Part shown: one piece after another, positions 3,449-46,079 of the stretch
Layout: every line of letters starts with the position of its first letter
How positions within the stretch are numbered: the stretch's first letter is position 1
Assembly (NCBI RefSeq): GCF_003044185.1
Contig: NZ_PYYB01000004.1
Coordinates: 186,001 to 250,000, forward strand
DNA: 64,000 nt
Source: Paraconexibacter algicola
GTDB taxonomy: Bacteria; Actinomycetota; Thermoleophilia; Solirubrobacterales; Solirubrobacteraceae
Direction: 5' to 3'
The notes under the pieces: generated by a model
The model's input: the letters and a program-made list of their open reading frames with translations, nothing else
What the model was told of the DNA's origin: nothing
Database searches by the model: none
Translations under genes and position numbers: made by a program

Positions 3449-4143
3449 CCGCCGCGGCCGACCCGATCCGCGTCGGCGTCGCCGGCGCGGCGGGACGCAT
3501 GGGGGCGACCGTCGTCGCCGCCGTGCAGGGCGCGCCCGACATGGTGCTCGCCGGGCAGGCCGACCCGGCCCTCGGCGTGGCGCTCGAGGACATCCTCGGG
3601 GACGTCGACGTCGTCGTCGACTTCACCCAGCCGCACACCGCGACCGCCAACGCGCTCGCCTGCCTGCGGGCGGGCGTGCACGTCGTCATCGGGACCAGCG
3701 GCTTCGACCTGCAGCCGCTCGTCGACCACGGCCGCCAGGAGGCCGCCAACGGGGTGACGCCCAACGCGCTGTTCTGCCCGAACTTCGCGATCGGCGCCGT
3801 GCTGATGATGCAGTTCGCCGCCGAGGCCGCGAAGCACATGGTCAAGGCGGAGATCGTCGAGCTGCACCACGACAAGAAGCTCGACGCCCCGTCGGGCACG
3901 GCGGCGCGGACCGCCGGGATGATGGCCGAGGCGACCGGGGGCCAGGCGCCGCCGATCCACTCGGTGCGCCTGCCCGGTCTCGTCGCCCACCAGGAGGTCC
4001 TGTTCGGCGGCGTCGGCGAGACGCTGACGATCCGTCACGACTCGCTGGACCGCTCCTCGTTCATGCCGGGCGTGCTGCTCGCGGTCCGGAAGGTCGGCGG
4101 GCTGACGAGCTCCCCGGTCGTCGGCCTCGAGCACGTCCTGTGA
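3445..4143 (+). CDS. dapB: 4-hydroxy-tetrahydrodipicolinate reductase
   Basis: DapB reduces the DapA product with NAD(P)H to tetrahydrodipicolinate in the lysine/diaminopimelate pathway. The N-terminal Rossmann loop is GAAGRMG. The catalytic signature ELHHDKKLDAPSGTA lies at residues 139-153, with H141/H142 and K144/K145 as the expected acid/base and substrate-binding residues. The 232-residue length is slightly short but complete. The start GTG overlaps the protease stop by four bases, and the dapB stop overlaps the next gene in the same way. dapA is about 7 kb downstream and dapD, dapC, dapE and dapF are also in this window. Confidence 0.96.
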   Translation: MTAAADPIRVGVAGAAGRMGATVVAAVQGAPDMVLAGQADPALGVALEDILGDVDVVVDFTQPHTATANALACLRAGVHVVIGTSGFDLQPLVDHGRQEAANGVTPNALFCPNFAIGAVLMMQFAAEAAKHMVKAEIVELHHDKKLDAPSGTAARTAGMMAEATGGQAPPIHSVRLPGLVAHQEVLFGGVGETLTIRHDSLDRSSFMPGVLLAVRKVGGLTSSPVVGLEHVL

Positions 4144-4640
4144 CCGTCGCCCGCCCGCTCACCGTCGCCGACGCGCCGCACCTCGCGCGGATCCAGGTGC
4201 GTGCGTGGCACCACGCGTTCGGGGACGTCGTCCTGCCCGAGGAGACGCCGACGGTCGCCGACCAGACGGAGGCGTGGACGGTCGCGCTGACCGCCGACGT
4301 CGCCGGGTTCGCGGTGGACGTCGCCGACGTCGTCCGGGGCTTCGTCGCCTACGGCCTGGCGCGCGATCCGGACGCCCGCAACGACGGGCTGGGGGAGATC
4401 TACGCGCTGTTCGTCGACCCGACCGCCCAGGGCGCCGGGATCGGCGGGCTGCTGCTGCGCGAGGCGGTCGGCGCGCTGCGCTTCCGCGGCTTCGACGGCG
4501 CCGTGCTGTGGACGCTGGAGGCGGCGCTGGCCCGCGAGATGTACGAGCGCCACGGCTGGGTGCAGGACATCGAGGCGGTCCCGGACCACGGGGTCCTCGG
4601 CGTGCCGGAGGTCCGCTACCGGCTGGAGCCGCTGGCGTGA
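4140..4640 (+). CDS. GNAT family N-acetyltransferase
   Basis: The protein has 166 residues and the GNAT fold pattern: an N-terminal RPLTVADAPHLARIQVRAW helix, the central strand GEIYALFVDPTAQGAGIGGLLL with the acetyl-CoA pyrophosphate loop (Q-G-A-G-I-G), and the C-terminal W-x-L-E-x-x-A-R-x-x-Y-E-R-H-G-W segment typical of the family. It should transfer an acetyl group from acetyl-CoA to an unknown amine. It starts at a GTG that overlaps the dapB stop (GTGA), and its own stop overlaps the next gene's GTG. It therefore looks like part of the pnp-dapB transcript. The substrate cannot be inferred from the sequence. Confidence 0.88.
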   Translation: MTVARPLTVADAPHLARIQVRAWHHAFGDVVLPEETPTVADQTEAWTVALTADVAGFAVDVADVVRGFVAYGLARDPDARNDGLGEIYALFVDPTAQGAGIGGLLLREAVGALRFRGFDGAVLWTLEAALAREMYERHGWVQDIEAVPDHGVLGVPEVRYRLEPLA

Positions 4641-5059
4641 CCCCGGCGCTCCCGCGGCCGGGGGCGGGCACACCGCTCGTCGCGGTGACCGACCACGCCG
4701 CGGAGCGCTTCCGCCAGCGCGTCGGCAGCCGCACCGGCGCGGTCGACGTCAAGCCCGAGGTCGTCGCGCGCGTCGCCCGCGCCTGGGCGGCAGGACGGGT
4801 CCTGGACCGTGCGCCCGCGGGCGCGACCGGGGCACGTGGGTCGCACTACGTCCGCGATGCCCGCGACCGCGGCGTGCTCTACGTCTGTCGCGACGCGGAC
4901 GGCGAGCTGCTCGTCATCACGCTCTGGGAGGACCCGGACGCCGCCGGGCCCGGGGGCGGCCCGCGTGTGCCGCGCCGGTTCACCGACGCGCTGAAGGACA
5001 CCGATCACGTGGTCGTCGACCGTCGCCCCGAGGACCGCGGGCGGGGTCGTGGCCGCTGA
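4637..5059 (+). CDS. Hypothetical protein, DUF4258-like
   Basis: I do not recognise a firm family for this 140-residue protein. Near its start it carries TDHAAERFRQRVGSR, which resembles the H-A-x-x-R-x-x-x-R helix of DUF4258-type proteins, small alpha/beta proteins sometimes found near toxins. The middle has GSHYVRDARDRGVLYVCRDADGELLVITLWE, a beta-hairpin-like stretch consistent with that fold. The start GTG overlaps the GNAT stop, and the 3' end overlaps the next gene by 11 bases, so it is co-transcribed. A metabolic accessory role is as likely as any toxin role; no antitoxin partner is visible. Confidence 0.7.
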   Translation: MTPALPRPGAGTPLVAVTDHAAERFRQRVGSRTGAVDVKPEVVARVARAWAAGRVLDRAPAGATGARGSHYVRDARDRGVLYVCRDADGELLVITLWEDPDAAGPGGGPRVPRRFTDALKDTDHVVVDRRPEDRGRGRGR

Positions 5060-5471
5060 GCCGCAGGTGCGGCTCGGGGCGCTGGCCCCGGAGTCGCTCG
5101 CCCCGGCCGTGCTCGCGCTGGTCCGTGCCGGGGCGGCCCGCGAGCCCGTGCTCGCCCGTGACCTGAGCGCCACGGTCGTGCTGCGCTTCCTCGAGGGGTT
5201 CCCGGCGGTGCGCCTGGAGTTCACCGGCGCGTCGGTCACCGTCGGCGACCACGAGGTGCTCGGTGCTCCGCGGTCGGTCGACCTCACGGTCACGGGCCGC
5301 CTCCCGGACGTCCTGCTGCTCGTCTCCGTCCCGCAGGCCGCGGGGCTGCCGCTGCCGTCCGGTCCGCGGGGTCGCGCCGCCGTCGCGCGGCTCGCCGACG
5401 GGCGCATCGAGCTCGACGGACCGCTGCGTCTCGGCCGCCGGCTGCTGACGCTGCTGGCGATCCCGGCCTGA
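5049..5471 (+). CDS. Hypothetical protein, SCP2-like fold
   Basis: This 140-residue protein starts at GTG 5049 inside the previous gene. The pattern of short hydrophobic strands (TVVLRFLEGFPAVRLEF, then VDLTVTGRLPDVLLLV) and the late RIELDGPLRLGRRLLTLLAI segment recall the sterol carrier protein 2 / alkyl-sulfatase C-terminal fold, which binds lipids. This is a resemblance only. There is no signal peptide or membrane segment. It is the last gene of the forward run that began with pnp, and it converges with a reverse gene across a hairpin. Confidence 0.68.
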   Translation: MAAEPQVRLGALAPESLAPAVLALVRAGAAREPVLARDLSATVVLRFLEGFPAVRLEFTGASVTVGDHEVLGAPRSVDLTVTGRLPDVLLLVSVPQAAGLPLPSGPRGRAAVARLADGRIELDGPLRLGRRLLTLLAIPA

Positions 5472-5485
5472 CCGGTCGGGACCGG
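5472..5485. terminator. Convergent hairpin terminator
   Basis: CCGGTC and GACCGG form a perfect six-base stem around GG. It lies directly after the stop of the SCP2-like gene and four bases before the stop of the converging reverse gene, so it can serve both strands. No U-tract follows, as is usual for hairpin terminators in GC-rich actinobacteria. Confidence 0.5.
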
Positions 5486-5489
5486 CCCG

Positions 5490-5828
5490 TCAGCCGACCT
5501 CGACGCCCGCGACGATCGACCGCTGCCCGGGGGTGGAGCAGCCCCACGCGTTCGCGCCGCTCATCACCGCGGTGGGACGGCAGCGCCAGCGCACGCCCCG
5601 GTAGCTGACCGTGACCGAGCGGGAGAATGCCGTCGTGCTCGAGCGCCAGTAGCGGCCGAGGACGGCGCGGGCCGTGCGGCAGGAGACGGAGCCCTTCGTC
5701 ACCGAGACCGCGACGCGGGCGTCGGTGAACGGGCGCTTGACGGACCCGCAGGAGCGGTCCTGCGCGGCCGCGCCCGCCGGGGTGGCGAGGACCGCGGTCG
5801 CGACGGCGAGGAGCAGCAGGCGACGCAT
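5490..5828 (-). CDS. Small secreted cysteine-bearing protein
   Basis: The 112-residue product begins with a clear signal peptide (MRRLLLLAVATAVLATPAGA, then AAQ), so the mature protein of about 90 residues should be exported. The mature part has four cysteines, in SCGS, SCRT, RCRP and GCST contexts, enough for two disulfides. It has a run of short strands such as RSVTVSYRGVRWRC. I recognise no family. I chose the ATG at 5828 over an upstream in-frame start because the signal peptide begins there and a purine-rich AGGAGGGG stretch lies upstream. It sits alone between converging and co-directional neighbours. Confidence 0.75.
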   Translation of the reverse strand: MRRLLLLAVATAVLATPAGAAAQDRSCGSVKRPFTDARVAVSVTKGSVSCRTARAVLGRYWRSSTTAFSRSVTVSYRGVRWRCRPTAVMSGANAWGCSTPGQRSIVAGVEVG

Positions 5829-5874
5829 GCCGCCGTCGTGCCCCTCCTCGCCGCGCCGCAAACGCGCGGCCGGG

Positions 5875-6642
5875 TCAGGCGCGCAGCTTGTAGCCGGACC
5901 GGAACAGGCGGTAGTTCACGGTCACGAGCGCCGCGACCGCGAGCGTCAGCAGCCCGAGCGACAGGGCGATGTTCGCCTCCGAGTAGCCGATGAACCCGTA
6001 CCGGACGAGGTTGATCATGTAGTAGACCGGGTCGATGTGGGTGAGCGTCTGGAAGGGCTCGTCCAGCAGCGACGCGGAGTAGAACACCCCGCCGAGGAAG
6101 ATCAGCGGCGTCAGCACGAACGTCTGGGCGAACGACACGTCGTCGAACTGCTCGGCACGCACGCCGACCAGGACGCCGAGCTGCGCGAAGAACATCCCGA
6201 CCAGGAACAGCGACGGGATCAGCACGAGCGGGTGCTCGATCGGGATGCCGATGAGGATCGAGCTCGCCAGGAACGTCAGCGACGCGACGAGCATCCCGCG
6301 CAGGAAGCCCCCGAACGTGAACGCGAACAGGAGCTCCAGCGGGGAGGCGGGGGAGGAGAGCTGGTCGTCGATCGCGCCCTGCATCTTCTGCTGGAGGATC
6401 GACGACGAGTTGTTGGAGAAGGCGTTCATCGCCCAGGCCATCATGATCAGGCCGGGCACGATGAAGACGACGTAGTCGACGCCGTGCAGCTGGTCGATGC
6501 GCGACCCGAGCGCCGCACCGAACACGCTGATGTAGAGGAACGTCTCCAGCAGCGGGGCACCGAGCGTCTGGCGCTTGATCTTCATGAAGCGGTTGACCTC
6601 GCGCCGCAGCAGCGCGAAGAAGCGGATCTGCGCCGTGCTCAT
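5875..6642 (-). CDS. ABC-2 type transporter permease
   Basis: The 255-residue integral membrane protein has about six hydrophobic segments and the ABC2_membrane pattern: a cytoplasmic N-terminus with R-F-F-A-L-L-R-R-E, a first segment near LLETFLYISVFGAALG, and a late GGVFYSASLLDE loop followed by INLVRYGFIGY. It is the permease of an exporter. It starts at an ATG that overlaps the stop of the upstream ATPase gene (ATGA). The pair resembles DrrAB/NodIJ exporters for drugs, lipids or polysaccharide precursors. The cargo is not predictable. Confidence 0.93.
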   Translation of the reverse strand: MSTAQIRFFALLRREVNRFMKIKRQTLGAPLLETFLYISVFGAALGSRIDQLHGVDYVVFIVPGLIMMAWAMNAFSNNSSSILQQKMQGAIDDQLSSPASPLELLFAFTFGGFLRGMLVASLTFLASSILIGIPIEHPLVLIPSLFLVGMFFAQLGVLVGVRAEQFDDVSFAQTFVLTPLIFLGGVFYSASLLDEPFQTLTHIDPVYYMINLVRYGFIGYSEANIALSLGLLTLAVAALVTVNYRLFRSGYKLRA

Positions 6643-7421
6643 CGCAGCACCGCCTCGGCGCCCGCGCTGCGCGAGAGCTCCTGCCGGCCGACGAGCTTCA
6701 GGTACGCGTCCTCCAGCGAGCTGGTCTCGTACTGCCGCGCGAGCTCCTGGTGGGTGCCCTCGGCGACGATCTCCCCGCCGTTGATGAAGGCGATGCGGTT
6801 GCACAGCTGCTCCGCCTCCTCGAGGTAGTGGGTCGTCAGGAGGATCGTCGTGCCCTCGGCGTTGATCTTCTGGACGTAGTGCCAGAGCTCCAGGCGCAGC
6901 TCGATGTCGACGCCCGCGGTGGGCTCGTCGAGGATCAGCAGCCTCGGGCGGTGCATCAGCGCCCGCGCGAGCACGAGCCGGCGCTTCATGCCACCGGACA
7001 GCGTGCGGCTGCGGTCGTCCTTCTTCGCGGTGAGCGAGAACGCGTCGAGCAGCTCCTTCGTGCGCTCGCGACGGTCCTTCTTGCTCATCCCGAAGTAGCC
7101 GCCGTGGTAGTCGAGCGTCTCCTCGAGCGTCAGGAACCAGTCGATGTTCAGCTCCTGCGGGGAGAGGCCGACAGCAGCGCGCGCCTCGCGGTAGTCGTGG
7201 ACCGCATCGTGGCCGAAGACGCGGATGTCACCGGCGGTCGGGGTCGCGAGCCCGGTGGTGCAGTGGATGAGGGTGGACTTGCCGGCGCCGTTGGGACCCA
7301 GCAGCCCGAAGAACTCGCCGTCGGGGATCTCCAGGGAGACGCCCTTCAGCGCCTGGGTGCCGGTCTTGTACGTCTTGACCAGGTCGGTGATCCGCAGGGC
7401 GGGGGGAGGGGGAGCAGTCAT
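6639..7421 (-). CDS. ABC transporter ATP-binding protein
   Basis: This 260-residue nucleotide-binding subunit has Walker A GPNGAGKS, a Q-loop in SPQELN, the signature LSGGMKRRL, Walker B LLILDEP and an H-loop in LLTTHY. The LSGGMKRR variant and the TAGVDIELR D-loop are typical of DrrA/CcmA-type ATPases that pair with ABC-2 permeases. The adjacent downstream gene is that permease. Upstream, a TTGACC hexamer overlaps the recD2 stop region, followed after 19 bases by TACCGT, which ends ten bases before the start codon; this is a plausible promoter with almost no 5' leader. Confidence 0.95.
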   Translation of the reverse strand: MTAPPPPALRITDLVKTYKTGTQALKGVSLEIPDGEFFGLLGPNGAGKSTLIHCTTGLATPTAGDIRVFGHDAVHDYREARAAVGLSPQELNIDWFLTLEETLDYHGGYFGMSKKDRRERTKELLDAFSLTAKKDDRSRTLSGGMKRRLVLARALMHRPRLLILDEPTAGVDIELRLELWHYVQKINAEGTTILLTTHYLEEAEQLCNRIAFINGGEIVAEGTHQELARQYETSSLEDAYLKLVGRQELSRSAGAEAVLR

Positions 7422-39570: not shown

Positions 39571-42333
39571 CTACGCGGCGGGGACCGCCGTGACGATCAC
39601 GTTGTCGCGGTAGTGGCCGCTCTGCTGGTCGAACGGGCCGCCGCAGGTGACGAGCACGAGCCGCTTGGGACCGCCGCGGGTGAAGATGCCGGTCGGCAGC
39701 GCCTCCTTGCGGACGGTCCGCACACCGGTGACGCGGTAGGTCCGCTCGCGGCGGTCCTCGGTGCGGACCACGATGCGGGTGCCGCGCCGCGCGCTACGCA
39801 GCGGGTAGAAGGCGCCCGCCCCGCGCTTGGCGCTGTCCACGTGCCCGGCGATGAGGGTCGTGCCGGTCGCGTCACCGGGGGTCGCCCCGTCCCGCCACCA
39901 GCCGACCTTCGAGATGTCCTTCGGCACCGCGAGCGCGCCGCTGCCGGTGTCGATCGTCACCGGGCGCACCGCGGTGTCGACGCCGAGCGTGCGGATCGTG
40001 ATGTGCGTGGGCTTGGGGAGGCTCTGCGCCGCCTTCCCGGTGACGAGGCGACCGGAGCTCGCGACGCGCGGGTCCCCGCGGCCGGTGAGGATCAGCGGTG
40101 CGACGAGCGAGGTCTCGGCCTCCTCGCCGCAGCGGCCCTGCTCGGCGCTCATCAGCGGCGACGACGCGATCTTCTCGCGGTAGCTGTAGAAGCCGGCCTT
40201 CGTCACCTTCACCTTCTCGGAGGTGAACGACCCGTCACCGGGGACGTCGACGGTCCCCTTCCAGAACGGGGTGCCCTCGCAGCTGATCTCGCCGCGGGTC
40301 TCGAACGGCCCGAACAGCTCGAGCGTGATCTTCGCGGGCGTCTGGCCGAGCCCGGTGACCTTCAGCGTGTCGAAGATCGACGCGCCCGGCTTGACGACCG
40401 CGTTCGAGACGGTGGTCACGACCTCGGGCTTGGCCTTCGTGAGCGTCGTCTCGGCCGCCTCGCCGCAGGCGGTCAGGACGCCCTCGTAGGCCTCGGAGGC
40501 GACGATCGACTCGCGGTAGGTGTAGAGCCCGGCCCGCGGCAGCGTGACCGGGGCGGTCGTGTAGGTGCCGTCACCGGCGGCGGCGAACTGGCTCGTGTGG
40601 ATCGGCGTGCCCGTGCACGTCATGTCCTCGCGCCGCTCGTACGGGCCCCAGAGCTCGACGTTGACGGTCGCGGCGAGCGCGCCGAGGCCGGTGATGACGA
40701 CCTGGTCGGTGACCTGCGCGCCGGGCGCGGTCTCCTGCGCGCTGATCTGCGTGCGGATCGCGGGCCGGCCGCGCACGATCGTCGTCTCGGACACCTCGGC
40801 GCACGGGTGGTCGGCGGCGCGGGTGAACTCGGTGGCCGGGATCGTCTCGCGGTAGGTGTAGTAGCCGGGCTGGGTGAGCGTCACCGGGTCGGTGACGTAC
40901 TCGCCGTCGGCGGCGGCCGGGAAGCTGCCCGTCCACACCGCGGGGCCGTCGCAGGTGATCTTGTCGCGGGACGGGAAGGGCCCGTAGAGCGCCGCGTTGA
41001 CCGTGACGGCCTCACCGGCGAGGCCCTCGACGACGACCGTGTCGGTCACCGCCGCGCCGGGGTCGACGGCGGGCGCGGAGACCTGCGTGCGGACCCGCGG
41101 CTGGGTCTCGACCTTCACGGACTCCTCGGGCAGCGCGCACGGGGTCGTGAGCCCCTGCACGTCGGGCGTCGAGGGCACGGTCAGCTGGTAGCCGTACCAG
41201 CCCGGTCGGGTCAGCGTGGTGGGCGGGGTGGTGGAGTCCCCGTTGCCGGCCTCGTAGGTGTGCGTGGCGACGGGCGGGCCGTCGCAGCTGATCTCCGACT
41301 GCCTGCGGGCCGGGCCGTAGAGGCGCACCTCGACCTGCTGGCGCCACGAGGCGGGCGCGCCGGAGATCTTCACGGTGTCACGGCTCTGCTCGCCGACGAG
41401 CATCGTCGTCGGGGCGGCAGCCGTCGTGACCGCGACCTTCGCGGGGGCGACGCGCGCGGTGACCACGTCCGCCACGGTCGCGGACCGGGCGGCGATGAGC
41501 CGCTGGCCGCTGCGCTGCGCGGCACCGCGCGTGGGCACGTAGAGCGCGGGGGTGGGGGCGGCGAGCTCCTCGGTGGTCGCGCGGATCTCGAGCTCGTCGG
41601 TCGCCTTGGCCGGCGTGAATGCGACGCGGACGTCGCCGCGGCTGCCGGTGTCGACCGTGGCGGGCAGGCCGTCGACGCCACGGGTGGCGAGCCGGACGGT
41701 GACGCCCGGGACCGGGACCCCGGTGCCGGAGAGCACGCGGACGCGGAGCTTCGTGGCCTTGCCGACGGTCAGGCCGCCGGTGGGGAGCTCCGCCTTGACC
41801 GTGTACGGGCCGGCGTAGCGGCGTGCGTCGCGCGCGATCCGCTGCACCTGCCGCTCGACGGCGGGGCCGGCCGCGGCCGGCGAGGCCTCGCCGGGAGCGC
41901 CGTCGCCCATCTGCGCGTGGACGTAGAGCATGACCGCCGCCTGGTCGACGACGCTCTGCGTGCGCCCGTAGGCCCAGGTGGCGTACGCGAGGCGGCGCAG
42001 CGTCCCGCCGGTGACCGCGTCGCCCTCCCGGTTCTTCAGCCCGGCGGTCGAGCGCTTCTCGTAGCCGAACGCGGCCGACGGGTACCAGAACCGCAGGTCG
42101 ATGCACCAGGTCGCGCCCTTGACGCCCGGGATGGCGCCGCGGTAGTCGCCGAACCACCGCAGGCCGTAGCGGTAGGTGTCGTACTTGCCGACCCCGAGCG
42201 TGTCGCAGACGTTGCGTCCGGCGCGGGAGCAGGGGTCGTTCTGGTTGGGCGGCTCGGCCGCGCTGACCGTGGCCGGAACCGTGGCCAGGATCGCGCCGAG
42301 GAGCGCCAGGAGGGGGAGCAGGCGTCCGTGCAT
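39571..42333 (-). CDS. Surface protein with thioester-like domain, Ig-like repeats and sortase domain
   Basis: The 920-residue protein begins with a signal peptide (MHGRLLPLLALLGAILATVPA). Residues 30-165 resemble a Cys-Gln thioester (TQXA) domain: a Cys in GATWCIDLRFWYP and a Gln in SVVDQAAVMLYVHAQ. A linker domain follows. Residues from about 300 to 750 hold four repeats of about 112 residues, each with a (L/E)xGP(F/Y) strand, a (S/T)CxG Cys, GY/LYTYRE and a second Cys before an ETxxx strand. The C-terminal 150 residues are a class F-like sortase with H831 (AGHVDS), C897 (VTCGGPFD) and R909 (YRDNVIV). No LPXTG or C-terminal membrane anchor is visible. I chose ATG 42333 because the signal peptide starts there; an earlier ATG at 42369 would make the operator-like repeats coding. 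Confidence 0.85.
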   Translation of the reverse strand: MHGRLLPLLALLGAILATVPATVSAAEPPNQNDPCSRAGRNVCDTLGVGKYDTYRYGLRWFGDYRGAIPGVKGATWCIDLRFWYPSAAFGYEKRSTAGLKNREGDAVTGGTLRRLAYATWAYGRTQSVVDQAAVMLYVHAQMGDGAPGEASPAAAGPAVERQVQRIARDARRYAGPYTVKAELPTGGLTVGKATKLRVRVLSGTGVPVPGVTVRLATRGVDGLPATVDTGSRGDVRVAFTPAKATDELEIRATTEELAAPTPALYVPTRGAAQRSGQRLIAARSATVADVVTARVAPAKVAVTTAAAPTTMLVGEQSRDTVKISGAPASWRQQVEVRLYGPARRQSEISCDGPPVATHTYEAGNGDSTTPPTTLTRPGWYGYQLTVPSTPDVQGLTTPCALPEESVKVETQPRVRTQVSAPAVDPGAAVTDTVVVEGLAGEAVTVNAALYGPFPSRDKITCDGPAVWTGSFPAAADGEYVTDPVTLTQPGYYTYRETIPATEFTRAADHPCAEVSETTIVRGRPAIRTQISAQETAPGAQVTDQVVITGLGALAATVNVELWGPYERREDMTCTGTPIHTSQFAAAGDGTYTTAPVTLPRAGLYTYRESIVASEAYEGVLTACGEAAETTLTKAKPEVVTTVSNAVVKPGASIFDTLKVTGLGQTPAKITLELFGPFETRGEISCEGTPFWKGTVDVPGDGSFTSEKVKVTKAGFYSYREKIASSPLMSAEQGRCGEEAETSLVAPLILTGRGDPRVASSGRLVTGKAAQSLPKPTHITIRTLGVDTAVRPVTIDTGSGALAVPKDISKVGWWRDGATPGDATGTTLIAGHVDSAKRGAGAFYPLRSARRGTRIVVRTEDRRERTYRVTGVRTVRKEALPTGIFTRGGPKRLVLVTCGGPFDQQSGHYRDNVIVTAVPAA

Positions 42334-42440: not shown

Positions 42441-43442
42441 CTACTGCAGGTAGCCGGCCTCGGTCAGGTACGCCTTGGCGACCGCCTCGGGCTTCTCCTT
42501 GTCGAGGTCCACGCGGGAGTTGAGCTCCTGCATGACCTCGGCGGTCAGGCCCTCCTGGACCTGCGTGATGACCTTCTCGAAGTCCGGCCCGGCGGCCTCC
42601 AGCGTCTCGTCCCGGACCACGAACGTCACGTTGTAGGGCGGGAAGAGGTTCTTGTCGTCCTCGAGCACGAGGAGGTCCTGCGCGGCGATCTGGCCGTCGG
42701 TCGTGAAGAGGATCGACGCGTCCGCCTGGCCCTTGGTGAGCACCTCGTGGCGCAGCGCGAGGTCGACCGGCAGGTACTTCTTGAACTTCGCTCCGTAGGT
42801 GCGCTCGAGCCCCAGGAGGCAGTCGGTGCGCTGGCGGCACTCGGGCGAGCCCGACATCGTCAGCTCCCCGCTCTTGGCGGCCAGCTGGCTGATCGTGGTG
42901 ATGCCGAGCTCCTCGGCGCGCTTCTTCGTCATCCCGACCTCGTTGGCGTCGGTGAAGGGCGTCGGCGCCAGCGCGGTCAGGCCGTCCTCGGCGAAGCCCT
43001 TCTTCGTCTCCTCGTAGGCGGCCTGCTCGTCCTTGGGGATGTCGTCGGTCTTGACGTCGAAGAACGACGTGAGCGCCGTGCCGGTGTACTCGGGGTACGC
43101 GTCGACCTCGCCGCTCTTGACCGACTTGAACGCGATCTGCTCGGAGCCGAGGTTCAGCTCCTTCTTGACCTTGTAGCCCGCGGCCTGGAGCGCCTGCGCG
43201 TAGATCTCGCCGAGGATGAACTGCTCGGTGAAGTTCTTCGAGCCGACCGTGATCTCGGGCGTCGAGGCGTTCGCCGGGTTGGAGACGATCGCCTTCGCGG
43301 CGGTCGCGCTCTCGGTCGAGGTGGTCCCGCTGGAGGCGGGGGTGGAGCCGTCGTCCTCGTCGTCGCCGCACGCCGAGAACGCCAGGACGGCGACGAGGGC
43401 GAGCAGCGCCGCGAGGAGGCGACGCGTGGTGGACGTGTTCAT
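42441..43442 (-). CDS. Glycine betaine/choline-type binding lipoprotein
   Basis: The 333-residue lipoprotein (lipobox AFSAC) is the substrate-binding component of an osmoprotectant importer, of the OpuCC/ProX/OsmX type. It has ITVGSKNFTEQFILGEIYAQALQAAGY, in part the family's opening signature, and DAYPEYTGTAL, LAPTPFTDANEVGMTKK and LVLEDDKNLFPPYNV blocks that line the quaternary-amine pocket. It is the fourth gene of the operon ATPase-permease-permease-binding protein, each overlapping the next by four bases. The likely substrates are glycine betaine, carnitine or choline. Confidence 0.94.
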   Translation of the reverse strand: MNTSTTRRLLAALLALVAVLAFSACGDDEDDGSTPASSGTTSTESATAAKAIVSNPANASTPEITVGSKNFTEQFILGEIYAQALQAAGYKVKKELNLGSEQIAFKSVKSGEVDAYPEYTGTALTSFFDVKTDDIPKDEQAAYEETKKGFAEDGLTALAPTPFTDANEVGMTKKRAEELGITTISQLAAKSGELTMSGSPECRQRTDCLLGLERTYGAKFKKYLPVDLALRHEVLTKGQADASILFTTDGQIAAQDLLVLEDDKNLFPPYNVTFVVRDETLEAAGPDFEKVITQVQEGLTAEVMQELNSRVDLDKEKPEAVAKAYLTEAGYLQ

Positions 43443-44176
43443 GGGGTGACCGACACCTTCCTGCTGCTGGATGGACGGACCTGCGGCGCGCGGCGATCCG
43501 GACTGCGGATGCCGCGCGGGGTGACGCGACGCTGGAGCATCGCGAAGAGGAGCTCGGCGAGGACGGCGAGGACGGCGACCACGATGGCCGCGCCGAGCCG
43601 GCCGGCGTCGCCGTAGACCGAGGCGTTGATGATCGGGTCGCCGAGCGTCACGACGCCGGCCAGCGGCGCGATCGTGGCGGTCGCGACGACGTTGATCGCC
43701 GAGTTGCGGATGCCGCCGAACATCGTCGGGACGGCGAGGGGCAGCTCGACGCGACGCAGCACCTGCAGCTCGGTGAGGCCCATGCCGCGCGCGGCGTCGA
43801 CGACGTCGGGCGAGACCTGCCGCACGCCGACGTAGGTGTTGCCGAGGATCGGCGGGATCGCGAGCAGCACGAGCGCGAGCGTGACGTTCGTGAAGCCGAC
43901 GCCGACGTAGGCGACGAAGAACGCGATCAGCGCGAGGCTCGGGACCGCGCGGCCCGCGTTGGCGATGAACTGCGCGAGGAACGCGCCGCGCCCCGTGTGC
44001 CCGATGACGAGGCCGAGCGGGACCGCGACGAGCACCGCCAGCAGCATCGAGACGGCGCTGAGCTCGAGGTGCTTGCCGAGGAGGTCCAGCAGCTGGCTGC
44101 CGCCGATCTCCACGCCGCCGGTCTGGGACTCGCGGCTGCGGAAGATGAACTCGATCGCGTCGGCGAAGTCGTTCAT
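43439..44176 (-). CDS. Osmoprotectant ABC transporter permease (second)
   Basis: The 245-residue permease has an OpuCB/OpuCD-like pattern: HLELSAVSMLLAVLVAVPLGL, then SLALIAFFVAYVGVG and the EAA loop AARGMGLTELQVLRRVELPLAVPTMFGGIR. About five to six membrane helices are visible. The C-terminal tail is basic. It overlaps both neighbours by four bases. Two distinct permeases form the heterodimer of the channel. Confidence 0.93.
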   Translation of the reverse strand: MNDFADAIEFIFRSRESQTGGVEIGGSQLLDLLGKHLELSAVSMLLAVLVAVPLGLVIGHTGRGAFLAQFIANAGRAVPSLALIAFFVAYVGVGFTNVTLALVLLAIPPILGNTYVGVRQVSPDVVDAARGMGLTELQVLRRVELPLAVPTMFGGIRNSAINVVATATIAPLAGVVTLGDPIINASVYGDAGRLGAAIVVAVLAVLAELLFAMLQRRVTPRGIRSPDRRAPQVRPSSSRKVSVTP

Positions 44177-44880
44177 GCGGGCACCGCCCGCCGCCAGCGG
44201 GTGAGCAGCCGCTCGATCCCGACGAAGAGCGCGTCGAACAGCGCCGCGAGCAGCAGGCACAGGCCGCCCGCCACGACGATGTTGCTCTTGAACGTGAGGT
44301 CGGCGTAGATCGCGCCGCCCAGGCCGCCGGCGCCGGCGAAGAAGGCGAGCGCGGCGAGGCCCACCGAGGTCGTGGCGGCGACGCGCAGCCCGGCGACGAT
44401 CTCCGGGACGGCGAGCGGCAGCTCGACCTTCCACAGCACCTGCCGGTCGGTCATCCCCATCCCGGCGGCGGCGTCGCGCGCCTCGTCGGGCACGTTGTCG
44501 AGCCCGAGCATGATGTTGCGGAAGATGATCAGCAGCGTGAACGCGGTGAGCGCGATCACGGCGGTGGTGATGCCGCGTCCCGTGACCGGGAGCAGCACGA
44601 GGAAGAACGCGAGGCTGGGGATCGTGTAGAGCACCCCGGTCACCGCGGTGATCGGTGCGACGAGCGCGCGGCGGCGGTGCGCCAGCAGCGCGAGCCCGAA
44701 CGCGATCGCGAAGCCGAACAGCACGGCGAGCGCCACGAGCAGGGCGTGCCGCACCGCCGGGTCGACGTAGCTGTCCCAGTTGTCGGCGATCCAGTCCGGG
44801 CAGAAGCCGTTGCGGGACTCGCACGTGCCCTGCGAGCGGTCGCGCAGCTGGACCTGCGCGAGCGGGATCGCGAGGGTCAC
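44173..44880 (-). CDS. Osmoprotectant ABC transporter permease (first)
   Basis: The 235-residue permease carries the EAA loop AAAGMGMTDRQVLWKVELPLAVPEIVAGLR and IPSLAFFLVLLPVTGRG. Its N-terminus has a short extracytoplasmic stretch with two cysteines (GTCESRNGFCPDW) before the first helix, which could form a disulfide. It starts at GTG 44880, overlapping the ATPase stop (GTGA). Confidence 0.93.
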   Translation of the reverse strand: MTLAIPLAQVQLRDRSQGTCESRNGFCPDWIADNWDSYVDPAVRHALLVALAVLFGFAIAFGLALLAHRRRALVAPITAVTGVLYTIPSLAFFLVLLPVTGRGITTAVIALTAFTLLIIFRNIMLGLDNVPDEARDAAAGMGMTDRQVLWKVELPLAVPEIVAGLRVAATTSVGLAALAFFAGAGGLGGAIYADLTFKSNIVVAGGLCLLLAALFDALFVGIERLLTRWRRAVPA

Positions 44881-46028
44881 TCGGCGAGCTCCGCCGGGCT
44901 GGGGACGGTCGCCGGGGATCCGGCGGCGAGCGCGTGGGAGATGACCTCGACGCTGAGCACGCCGGTGACGCCGCCCTGCGCGTCGACGACGGGGCCGTAC
45001 TGCGTCTCGTGGGCCAGCAGGTCCGACAGGGCGTCGCGCAGGACGTCGTCCATGTCGAGCACCGGGGTGGCGCGCGAGCGCGGCTCGGCCGCGACGGTGT
45101 CGCCCGCGAGCGCGGCGTCGCGCAGCCAGCCGAGCGGGCGGCCGTCCTCGTCGACGAGCAGCGGGTAGGGGAGGTCGGAGTCCTCGATCAGCGCGCGCGC
45201 CTCGGCGACCGGCTGCCCGACGCGCACGATCGGGGCGCGCCACAGGTCGATGTCGCGGACGCGCTGGAGGGCGAGGCGCTTGAGCGCGCGGTCGGCGCCG
45301 ACGAAGTCCTCGACGAACGGGCTGGCGGGCGCCATCAGCAGGTCGGCGGGCGTGGCGAACTGGGCGAGATGCCCGCCCTTCTGCAGGACGGCGACGCGAT
45401 CGCCCATCTTGATCGCCTCGTCGATGTCGTGGGTCACGAACACGATCGTCTTGCCGATCTCGCCCTGCAGCCGCAGGAACTCGTTCTGCAGCCGCTCGCG
45501 GTTGATCGGGTCGATCGCGCCGAACGGCTCGTCCATGAGCATCAGCGGCGGGTCGGCCGCGAGCGCGCGCGCGACGCCGACCCGCTGGCGCTGGCCGCCG
45601 GAGAGCTGCGCGGGGTAGCGGTCGCGCATCTCCGCGGGGTCGAGCCCGATGAGCTCGAGCAGCTCCTCGACGCGGGCCGCGATGCGCGCGCGGTCCCAGC
45701 CCAGGAGCTTCGGGACGGTCGCGATGTTCTCGCCGACCGTCTGGTGCGGGAACAGGCCGATCTGCTGGATCGCGTACCCGATCTCGCGGCGCAGCTGGGC
45801 GGGCTCGCGGTCGAGGATCGAGCGGCCGTCGAGGAGGATGTCGCCGCCGGTCGGCTCGATCATCCGGTTGACGAGCCGCATCGCGGTCGTCTTGCCGCAG
45901 CCGGACGGGCCCACGAGCACGCAGATCTCGCCCGCGGGCACCTCGAGGCTGAGGTCCTCGATCGCCGCCTCGGCCGCCCCGGGGTAGCGCTTGCTGACGT
46001 TGCGGAGTTCGAGGGTCGCGGCAGGCAC
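44877..46028 (-). CDS. Osmoprotectant ABC transporter ATPase with CBS domains
   Basis: The 383-residue OpuCA/ProV-like ATPase has Walker A GPSGCGKTT, signature LSGGQRQRV, Walker B LMLMDEPFGAID and a C-terminal tandem CBS pair (from about residue 255), which senses ionic strength in OpuA/OpuC transporters. I chose GTG 46028; it lies seven bases after a TAGGGT -10 box and right at the conserved start. An upstream in-frame GTG at 46046 would overlap that box. Confidence 0.94.
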   Translation of the reverse strand: MPAATLELRNVSKRYPGAAEAAIEDLSLEVPAGEICVLVGPSGCGKTTAMRLVNRMIEPTGGDILLDGRSILDREPAQLRREIGYAIQQIGLFPHQTVGENIATVPKLLGWDRARIAARVEELLELIGLDPAEMRDRYPAQLSGGQRQRVGVARALAADPPLMLMDEPFGAIDPINRERLQNEFLRLQGEIGKTIVFVTHDIDEAIKMGDRVAVLQKGGHLAQFATPADLLMAPASPFVEDFVGADRALKRLALQRVRDIDLWRAPIVRVGQPVAEARALIEDSDLPYPLLVDEDGRPLGWLRDAALAGDTVAAEPRSRATPVLDMDDVLRDALSDLLAHETQYGPVVDAQGGVTGVLSVEVISHALAAGSPATVPSPAELAE

Positions 46029-46035
46029 GAATCCA

Positions 46036-46041
46036 ACCCTA
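46036..46041 (-). promoter_or_regulatory. -10 box of the osmoprotectant operon (TAGGGT)
   Basis: On the reverse strand TAGGGT ends seven bases before GTG 46028, predicting a leaderless operon transcript. Confidence 0.5.
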
Positions 46042-46079
46042 CCCACCGGTCCGGTGGTGATTCCTGCGCGAGACGTCGC

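Follow-up and report, generated by a model that had tools for sequence, protein, structure and literature searches.

Class F sortases are typically anchored N-terminally. A 2026 study of Actinoplanes states that class F enzymes have no known physiological role (PMC13251363). The thioester adhesin SfbI is described as binding covalently (PMC4450167), and the same source reports thioester domains (TEDs) as almost always N-terminal in proteins with a C-terminal LPXTG signal. In the class II TED layout given in PMC6194298, strand C bears the Cys and is followed by three helices, by a seven-stranded sandwich that is inserted, and finally by strand Q with the Gln. According to that account, the bond-forming Cys and Gln are the only universally conserved TED residues, and the helix motif TQXX(Phi)W is common in class II yet unnecessary for the bond. 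Enzyme and recognition site have also been combined by engineering, in sortase-LPETG fusions (BISOP) that are reported to self-cleave (PMC2901362). Here we analyze a gene of Paraconexibacter algicola that encodes a thioester-like tip, a stalk and a sortase domain in a single frame, located at 39571..42333 (minus strand) of a 64,000-nucleotide stretch of contig NZ_PYYB01000004.1, hereafter the window. The protein family to which it belongs departs from the TED pattern described in PMC4450167.

The gene starts with ATG, encodes 920 residues, and is documented by the open reading frame (ORF) list, by Pfam and NCBIfam matches, and by homologs. We read its product, with a probability of roughly 0.4, as an exported adhesin that carries a sortase of its own, with a thioester tip and with the sortase acting on a motif of the same chain. 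A signal peptide (residues 1-25, 42259..42333; this and all features below are on the minus strand), probably cleaved between VSA and AEPP, precedes the tip (residues 26-290, 41464..42258). The stalk comprises four immunoglobulin-like (Ig-like) repeats of about 112 residues with two Cys each and a mutual identity of 28-47%: repeat 1 (residues 294-407, 41113..41454, Cys 350/399), which is missing from three-repeat homologs, repeat 2 (residues 408-520, 40774..41112, Cys 461/511), repeat 3 (residues 521-633, 40435..40773, Cys 573/623), and repeat 4 (residues 634-745, 40099..40434, Cys 685/735). The chain ends with the sortase domain, and a C-terminal LPXTG signal with hydrophobic helix and basic tail is absent. 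In an alignment of 21 homolog rows (A2), residues -3 and -1 of the signal peptide are small in every row, before a conserved A-E-P-P type start. An initial annotation of the window, made from the sequence alone, had proposed the signal peptide, the four Cys-paired repeats, and the joining of a thioester-like tip and Ig stalk to a sortase in one chain. The signal peptide and the repeats are confirmed. The fusion of a thioester-type tip and stalk to a sortase is supported, with the sortase His and Cys kept and the architecture conserved across the class.

Searching 201 genomes of the order with the protein yielded full-length homologs with 56-59% identity; hence, the architecture of the ORF is not due to chance. 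One scan of named genomes yielded 20 loci, including Patulibacter medicamentivorans, P. minatonensis, Conexibacter arvalis, Solirubrobacter soli, S. taibaiensis and Svornostia abyssi. When 232 genomes of the order were scanned with a tip-only profile (A3), 15 matched at E <= 1e-5 (two weakly, in the sandwich part only); in a sample of the class comprising 399 genomes, 24 matched at E <= 1e-10. Three of these 24 tip-bearing genomes (G156, G003 and G658) have frames cut by contig ends, and all 21 uncut frames carry the sortase in frame with the tip, so the fusion whose presence in relatives had been raised as a check does occur there. Given that the tip profile had no match in all seven other genomes of the same genus among the 232, the distribution is patchy. 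The number of repeats is four in most homologs, three in five (L046 being incomplete) and one in L050; tip and sortase are constant while stalk length varies, and the fusion proteins of the family are ~570-925 residues long. The residue counts given below refer to 26 distinct sequences, 25 of them with sortase. Repeats of named loci (L157-L162, L164, L168, L118 and L119) were left out, L165 (G658), whose frame ends with its contig, stands outside the counts, and L046 and L049, at contig ends, were counted only at positions where residues exist.

No conserved gene neighbors were found around the homologs, and those of the window do not recur; the idea of a conserved operon partner was dropped. 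A mobile origin was likewise dropped, given no phage match and only partial plasmid matches. Upstream of the fusion gene in the window, and like it on the minus strand, lie genes that resemble an osmoprotectant-type ATP-binding cassette transporter (42441-46046, read by eye), with 107 bases in between. One matching record, L043 (CAMCUD010000010.1), is titled as a metagenome-assembled genome of Bifidobacterium breve. This organism name looks wrong, because L043 matches G127, a genome of the window's family grouped beside Svornostia-type genomes.

A class II arrangement was the expectation set before the fold search, from three residues (C77, a Gln in a helix, and the Gln in SGQRLV) and an intervening sandwich. 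The AlphaFold2 model of the tip, built with 21 sequences, has a predicted local distance difference test (pLDDT) score of 85.9 and a predicted template modeling score of 0.85, and its elements follow the class II order of Cys strand, three helices, sandwich and Gln strand. The inserted Big_1/macroglobulin-like beta-sandwich (residues 178-260, 41554..41802) is seen in the model strands and in weak Pfam Big_1/MG4 traces at residues 193-256. VIA-align matched the model with 6fwv (Z 10.8, 213 residues, root-mean-square deviation (rmsd) 4.5 A), 6fx6 (Z 9.8, 212 residues, rmsd 4.4 A) and 6fwy (Z 9.7, 214 residues, rmsd 6.0 A). Among the 50 rows listed, only these, the three solved class II thioester domains, span model residues 18/19 to 273-276. 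The match of the N-terminal domain to thioester folds, which the initial annotation had set as a test, was thus found to a moderate degree, and a class II (slipknot) thioester-type fold of the tip is moderately supported.

The support is no more than moderate because the rmsd of the three matches is high (4.4-6.0 A), the best 50 Foldseek matches of the tip include no thioester domain, the Pfam TED profile PF08341 matches 0/21 rows at E up to 10, and the Trp of TQXX(Phi)W is replaced by M in 21/21 rows (M135 in the window protein). Two further points weigh against the assignment. Nearly all other VIA-align rows listed match the sandwich alone, at similar Z. The hhalign comparison with Streptomyces-type TEDs is weak, with a probability of 24% and P 8.5e-4 (five controls gave P 0.16-0.3; a longer set gave 15.5% and P 0.0017), and it places Q277 on the second Gln of SQTQIL, of which the first is the invariant one, so the register between tip and TED is unsettled by sequence. 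Foldseek matches of the full-length model were filled by Ig-chain proteins and are uninformative. Given that PF08341 matches none of the 21 rows, while the same scan detects it in the Streptomyces-type L054 at 8.7e-18, we call the tip TED-like and not a member of that family.

C77 (42103..42105), the predicted thioester Cys in an [F/W]C[I/V]D motif, and Q277 (41503..41505), the predicted thioester Gln in QRL, are each invariant (26/26). At the [YFL]C(Phi)(zeta) position four A2 rows, the window protein among them, read WCID, and most homologs read FCID or FCVD. Q131 (41941..41943), which lies in model helix 128-142 at the Gln position of TQXX(Phi)W, is Q in 22/26 sequences and N, T, A or S in the other four; it was rejected as the thioester Gln and is probably not bond-forming. 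Since C77 and Q277 are invariant and Q131 varies, the likely pair is C77-Q277, whose bonding is predicted. The initial annotation had seen a Cys and a Gln placed as in thioester adhesins; if Q131 was the Gln intended, that part is probably wrong. C77 and Q277 are 200 residues apart; the spacing is given as 204 in EfmTIE86 (C88-Q292) and 171 in SaTIE (C296-Q467) in PMC6194298.

In 21/21 A2 rows, every Cys of the mature chain sits in one of the 12 Cys columns of the window protein, with 12, 10 or 6 Cys per complete chain for four, three or one repeat. Hence, C77 and C897 are the only Cys outside C35/C43, which are eight residues apart, and the repeat pairs. They would be the only free cysteines if C35/C43 and the repeat pairs form disulfides, although C35, C43 and C77 could pair differently.

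The class F-type sortase domain (residues 775-918, 39580..40011) is matched by Pfam Sortase at residues 778-918 (5e-19), and its best NCBIfam family is class F sortase (2.5e-33), with 114.9 bits where the curated cut-off is 166. L018, an enzyme of class F type that stands alone and comes from the same order, likewise falls below the cut-off (164.6 versus 166). The class F profile has the best E-value in 19 of the 21 rows, the remaining two having no sortase domain. The fold does not discriminate class, since the domain is matched at Z 13.3-16.4 by sortase structures from classes A, C, E and F. 5uus was not reached by sequence from L018, and a pattern-based alignment of stand-alone sortases captured two only. 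In the window's own genome (4.7 megabases, 6 contigs), the two PF04203 matches are the fusion gene and L001, whose best NCBIfam family is class E sortase.

Both H831 (39841..39843), the sortase His, and C897 (39643..39645), the sortase Cys, are present in 25/25 distinct sortase-bearing sequences, and the domain, with a mean identity of 58% to the window protein, is at least as conserved as the rest of the chain. The complete sortase with H831, C897 and R909 of the initial annotation hence stands for the His and Cys but less so for the Arg. R909 (39607..39609), the candidate catalytic Arg of YRDN, is R in 21/25 and V, E, K and L in the other four, which counts against our reading; N911 is invariant (25/25). 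Because GHYRDN aligns without a gap to GVWEKR of S. aureus SrtA, the Arg close to the end of the SrtA domain, presumably its catalytic one, falls opposite N911, two positions from R909. Given that the YRDN Arg varies while the Asn is kept, the identity of the third catalytic group is questionable. The sortase ends concerned are those of L038, L050, L138, L139, P0003 and P0006, with YTHN or YENN in place of YRDN in the plasmid enzymes among them.

Between the last repeat and the linker lies a conserved LPXTG-like motif, P746-L-I-L-T-G-R752 (40078..40098), which is a candidate internal sorting signal. In the 25 sequences, position 746 is P in 24, 747 is L (16), A (7) or G (2), 748 is I (24) or V (1), 750 is T (22) or G (3), 751 is always G (25), and 752 is R (21) or G (4); at 749, as at the X of LPXTG, the residue is not fixed (L, N, P, Q, A, S, I). 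The linker that follows (residues 753-774, 40012..40077) has a low pLDDT, a length of 14-29 residues among homologs, and a mean identity of 19% to the window protein over 752-774. Related repeats in two other actinobacterial genomes end in canonical signals, ..SAPLPFTG-helix-RRRR (L142) and ..DQLPFTG-helix-RRRR (L141), and in the window protein the stretch at the same place after the repeat is ..VAPLILTGRGD. In L139, a distant fusion, GISTGRGD is retained although the Pro is gone. On the other side, the motif has I where LPXTG has P, its T is replaced by G in 3/25, and its P-x-[IV]-x-T half resembles the P-x-[VI]-x-T with which the repeats themselves begin; the motif may thus be what remains of a repeat. 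Its specific features are G751, a hydrophobic or small residue at 747, and R752; a G never follows the T in three aligned repeat starts. The initial annotation had reported neither an LPXTG signal nor a C-terminal helix; canonical signal and helix are indeed absent, but it had missed the conserved PLILTG at 746-751. VPTRG (residues 266-270) was dropped as an internal signal, being lost in the wider homolog set.

The initial annotation had proposed to look for LPXTG-like proteins in the genome. PF00746 had no match above its cut-off in the window's own genome, and TIGR01167 gave weak matches there; most loci read by a pattern script are not C-terminal signals. LPXTG/LAXTG-like tails do occur in some fusion genomes (L094, L096 and L100), including L078 in the window's own (G000:C2:110851-110925, minus strand). 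The C-terminal ..RLADTGIDARLFLALGVALLLAGIGLRLRTIPERF of the L078 protein is probably a LAXTG-type signal, for which the class E-type sortase L001 would be a suitable enzyme.

A split counterpart of the fusion is found on the Pimelobacter simplex plasmid pB-N39. It carries an 863-residue stalk homolog (28% identity to P0001 over residues 94-744, BLASTP 8e-42) that ends SLVKKPRRPDIPTG (PDIPTG) plus 20 residues, among which a helix is not evident. The stalk gene (locus 3602-6193) and a class F sortase gene downstream of it (6205-6855; NCBIfam class F match 5.4e-12) are 11 bases apart. In Tsukamurella, a SpaA-type protein ending SIPSGRTV directly abuts a class F sortase gene. A point against our reading is that a neighbor with an I-P-[T/S]-G ending was found in only 2 of 6 annotated class F neighborhoods read (H1, H3, H5, H7, H9 and H10, out of 14 matching plasmid records, ten of them listed; H4 and H8 lack annotation at the match, and H2 and H6, second Pimelobacter and Paenarthrobacter records, were not counted). 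Three Streptomycetaceae neighborhoods have the class F sortase beside a DUF4331 protein with a C-terminal helix-like stretch and RRRR, and no surface gene evidently adjoins the Paenarthrobacter class F sortase. The DUF4331 neighbors in the Streptomycetaceae plasmids (L170, L172 and L173) have the RRRR tail and no clear pentapeptide; it is possible that they are class F substrates, like the neighbors in Actinoplanes, which are unassigned. Related Cys-paired Ig-like repeats also occur in large secreted proteins of the window's order (L016, L022 and L120), in which no tip or sortase was seen. The Ig-repeat proteins, including L120-L123, were located by tblastn.

Taken as a pathway, our reading would proceed as follows. 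The Sec signal peptide would be cleaved and the protein exported. The tip would form an internal C77-Q277 thioester and couple covalently to a target amine, like class I thioester adhesins, with the disulfide-braced repeats acting as a stalk. The sortase would recognize [L/A/G]-I-x-T-G just upstream, in cis or on a neighboring copy, cleave T750-G751, keep the stalk as an acyl-enzyme on C897, and transfer the stalk to an amine, either in the cell wall or on a partner protein. The membrane helix and the basic tail that a normal sorting signal has would thereby be replaced by the fused enzyme. Architecture, conservation and motif are read directly from the sequences and the fold match from a model, while we infer that the thioester forms and that cleavage takes place, and likewise the acceptor and where the protein finally resides. 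Most likely, the sortase would act on the motif in its own chain. Self-anchoring, which the initial annotation had raised as a possibility, seems to gain support from the internal I-x-T-G motif and from the split two-gene relative; the reported self-cleavage of engineered sortase-LPETG fusions (PMC2901362) also speaks for our reading, and the 14-29-residue linkers may be long enough for the motif to reach the active site in cis.

The sortase might instead work in trans on other proteins, with tip and stalk positioning it and P-L-I-L-T-G being a leftover of a repeat start. The shared P-x-[VI]-x-T of the repeat starts, the fact that known class F sortases are separate enzymes, and the LPXTG/LAXTG-like tails of some fusion genomes (L094, L096, L100 and L078) fit such a role. 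However, no conserved gene neighbor offers itself as a substrate, G751 is invariant where the three aligned repeat starts never have G after T, and the split Pimelobacter pair sets the class F sortase beside the stalk protein itself; we regard the trans role as doubtful. The domain could also have ceased to be a transpeptidase and serve as a hydrolase or wall-binding module, as the V, E, K or L in place of R909 in 4/25 would allow. Given the full conservation of H831 and C897 and the 58% mean identity of the domain, this is very improbable.

Two further alternatives concern the N-terminal part. If C77 were disulfide-paired to C35 or C43, the tip would have no thioester and would be an ordinary binding module with a slipknot fold. 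The three conserved tip Cys permit this, and the missing TQXX(Phi)W Trp and Pfam TED match agree with it, whereas an invariant Gln lies 200 residues after C77, in line with the spacing in class II (204, 171), and C35 and C43, eight residues apart, could pair mutually, so we consider it unlikely. Alternatively, an uncleaved signal anchor would hold the N-terminus in the membrane, with the tip at the membrane and the sortase far out on the stalk, as in a long-armed class F enzyme. This agrees with the usual N-terminal anchoring of the class and with the hydrophobic N-terminal stretch of L018, but the tip would then be buried at the membrane, and the small -3/-1 residues before the A-E-P-P type start are as for signal peptidase cleavage; it is less probable still than a tip without thioester.

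In its most specific form, our reading makes the protein a natural self-sorting adhesin, which cleaves [L/A/G]-I-x-T-G of its own or a sister chain and couples a thioester-tipped stalk to the wall or into a polymer; we propose this form somewhat more tentatively. If it is correct, a single gene would suffice for covalent bonding at both ends and would need no separate sortase, no separate substrate and no membrane-spanning signal. The protein would then be a natural counterpart of the engineered self-cleaving sortase fusions, its sorting signal would be able to work without a membrane helix, and protein engineering would gain a one-gene, two-ended covalent linker. Because the sortase is fixed to its apparent own substrate with a candidate motif, class F specificity becomes directly testable.

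In the literature, judged by titles and abstract starts and with most subscription journals not covered, no natural adhesin-sortase fusion was recognized. The class II TIE adhesins BaTIE, SaTIE and EfmTIE86 (6fwv, 6fx6 and 6fwy), as described in PMC6194298, share with the fusion an N-terminal Cys-Gln domain with inserted sandwich, secretion, an Ig-like stalk, and a similar spacing (200 versus their 204 and 171). Unlike them, the fusion has neither a Pfam TED match nor the TQXX(Phi)W Trp, its stalk consists of Cys-paired repeats where TIE stalks consist of isopeptide domains, and where they have an LPXTG anchor it has a sortase domain of its own. With class F sortases (NF033748; C. diphtheriae SrtF, 5uus; A. 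missouriensis SrtF1-4) it shares the His, the Cys and the YRDN-type end, although its sortase scores under the curated cut-off. SrtF1-4 of A. missouriensis are given as stand-alone enzymes of 184-273 residues (PMC13251363), whereas here the enzyme is the C-terminal domain of an adhesin of ~570-925 residues. L141 and L142 have related Cys-paired repeats with a sorting motif right after the last one, but this motif is a canonical LPXTG followed by helix and basic tail, with no fused enzyme and no such tip seen. The BISOP fusions resemble the present protein in having enzyme and recognition site in one chain; as described in PMC2901362, they are man-made with the enzyme N-terminal to the site, whereas the fusion is natural and has its enzyme C-terminal to a degenerate site.

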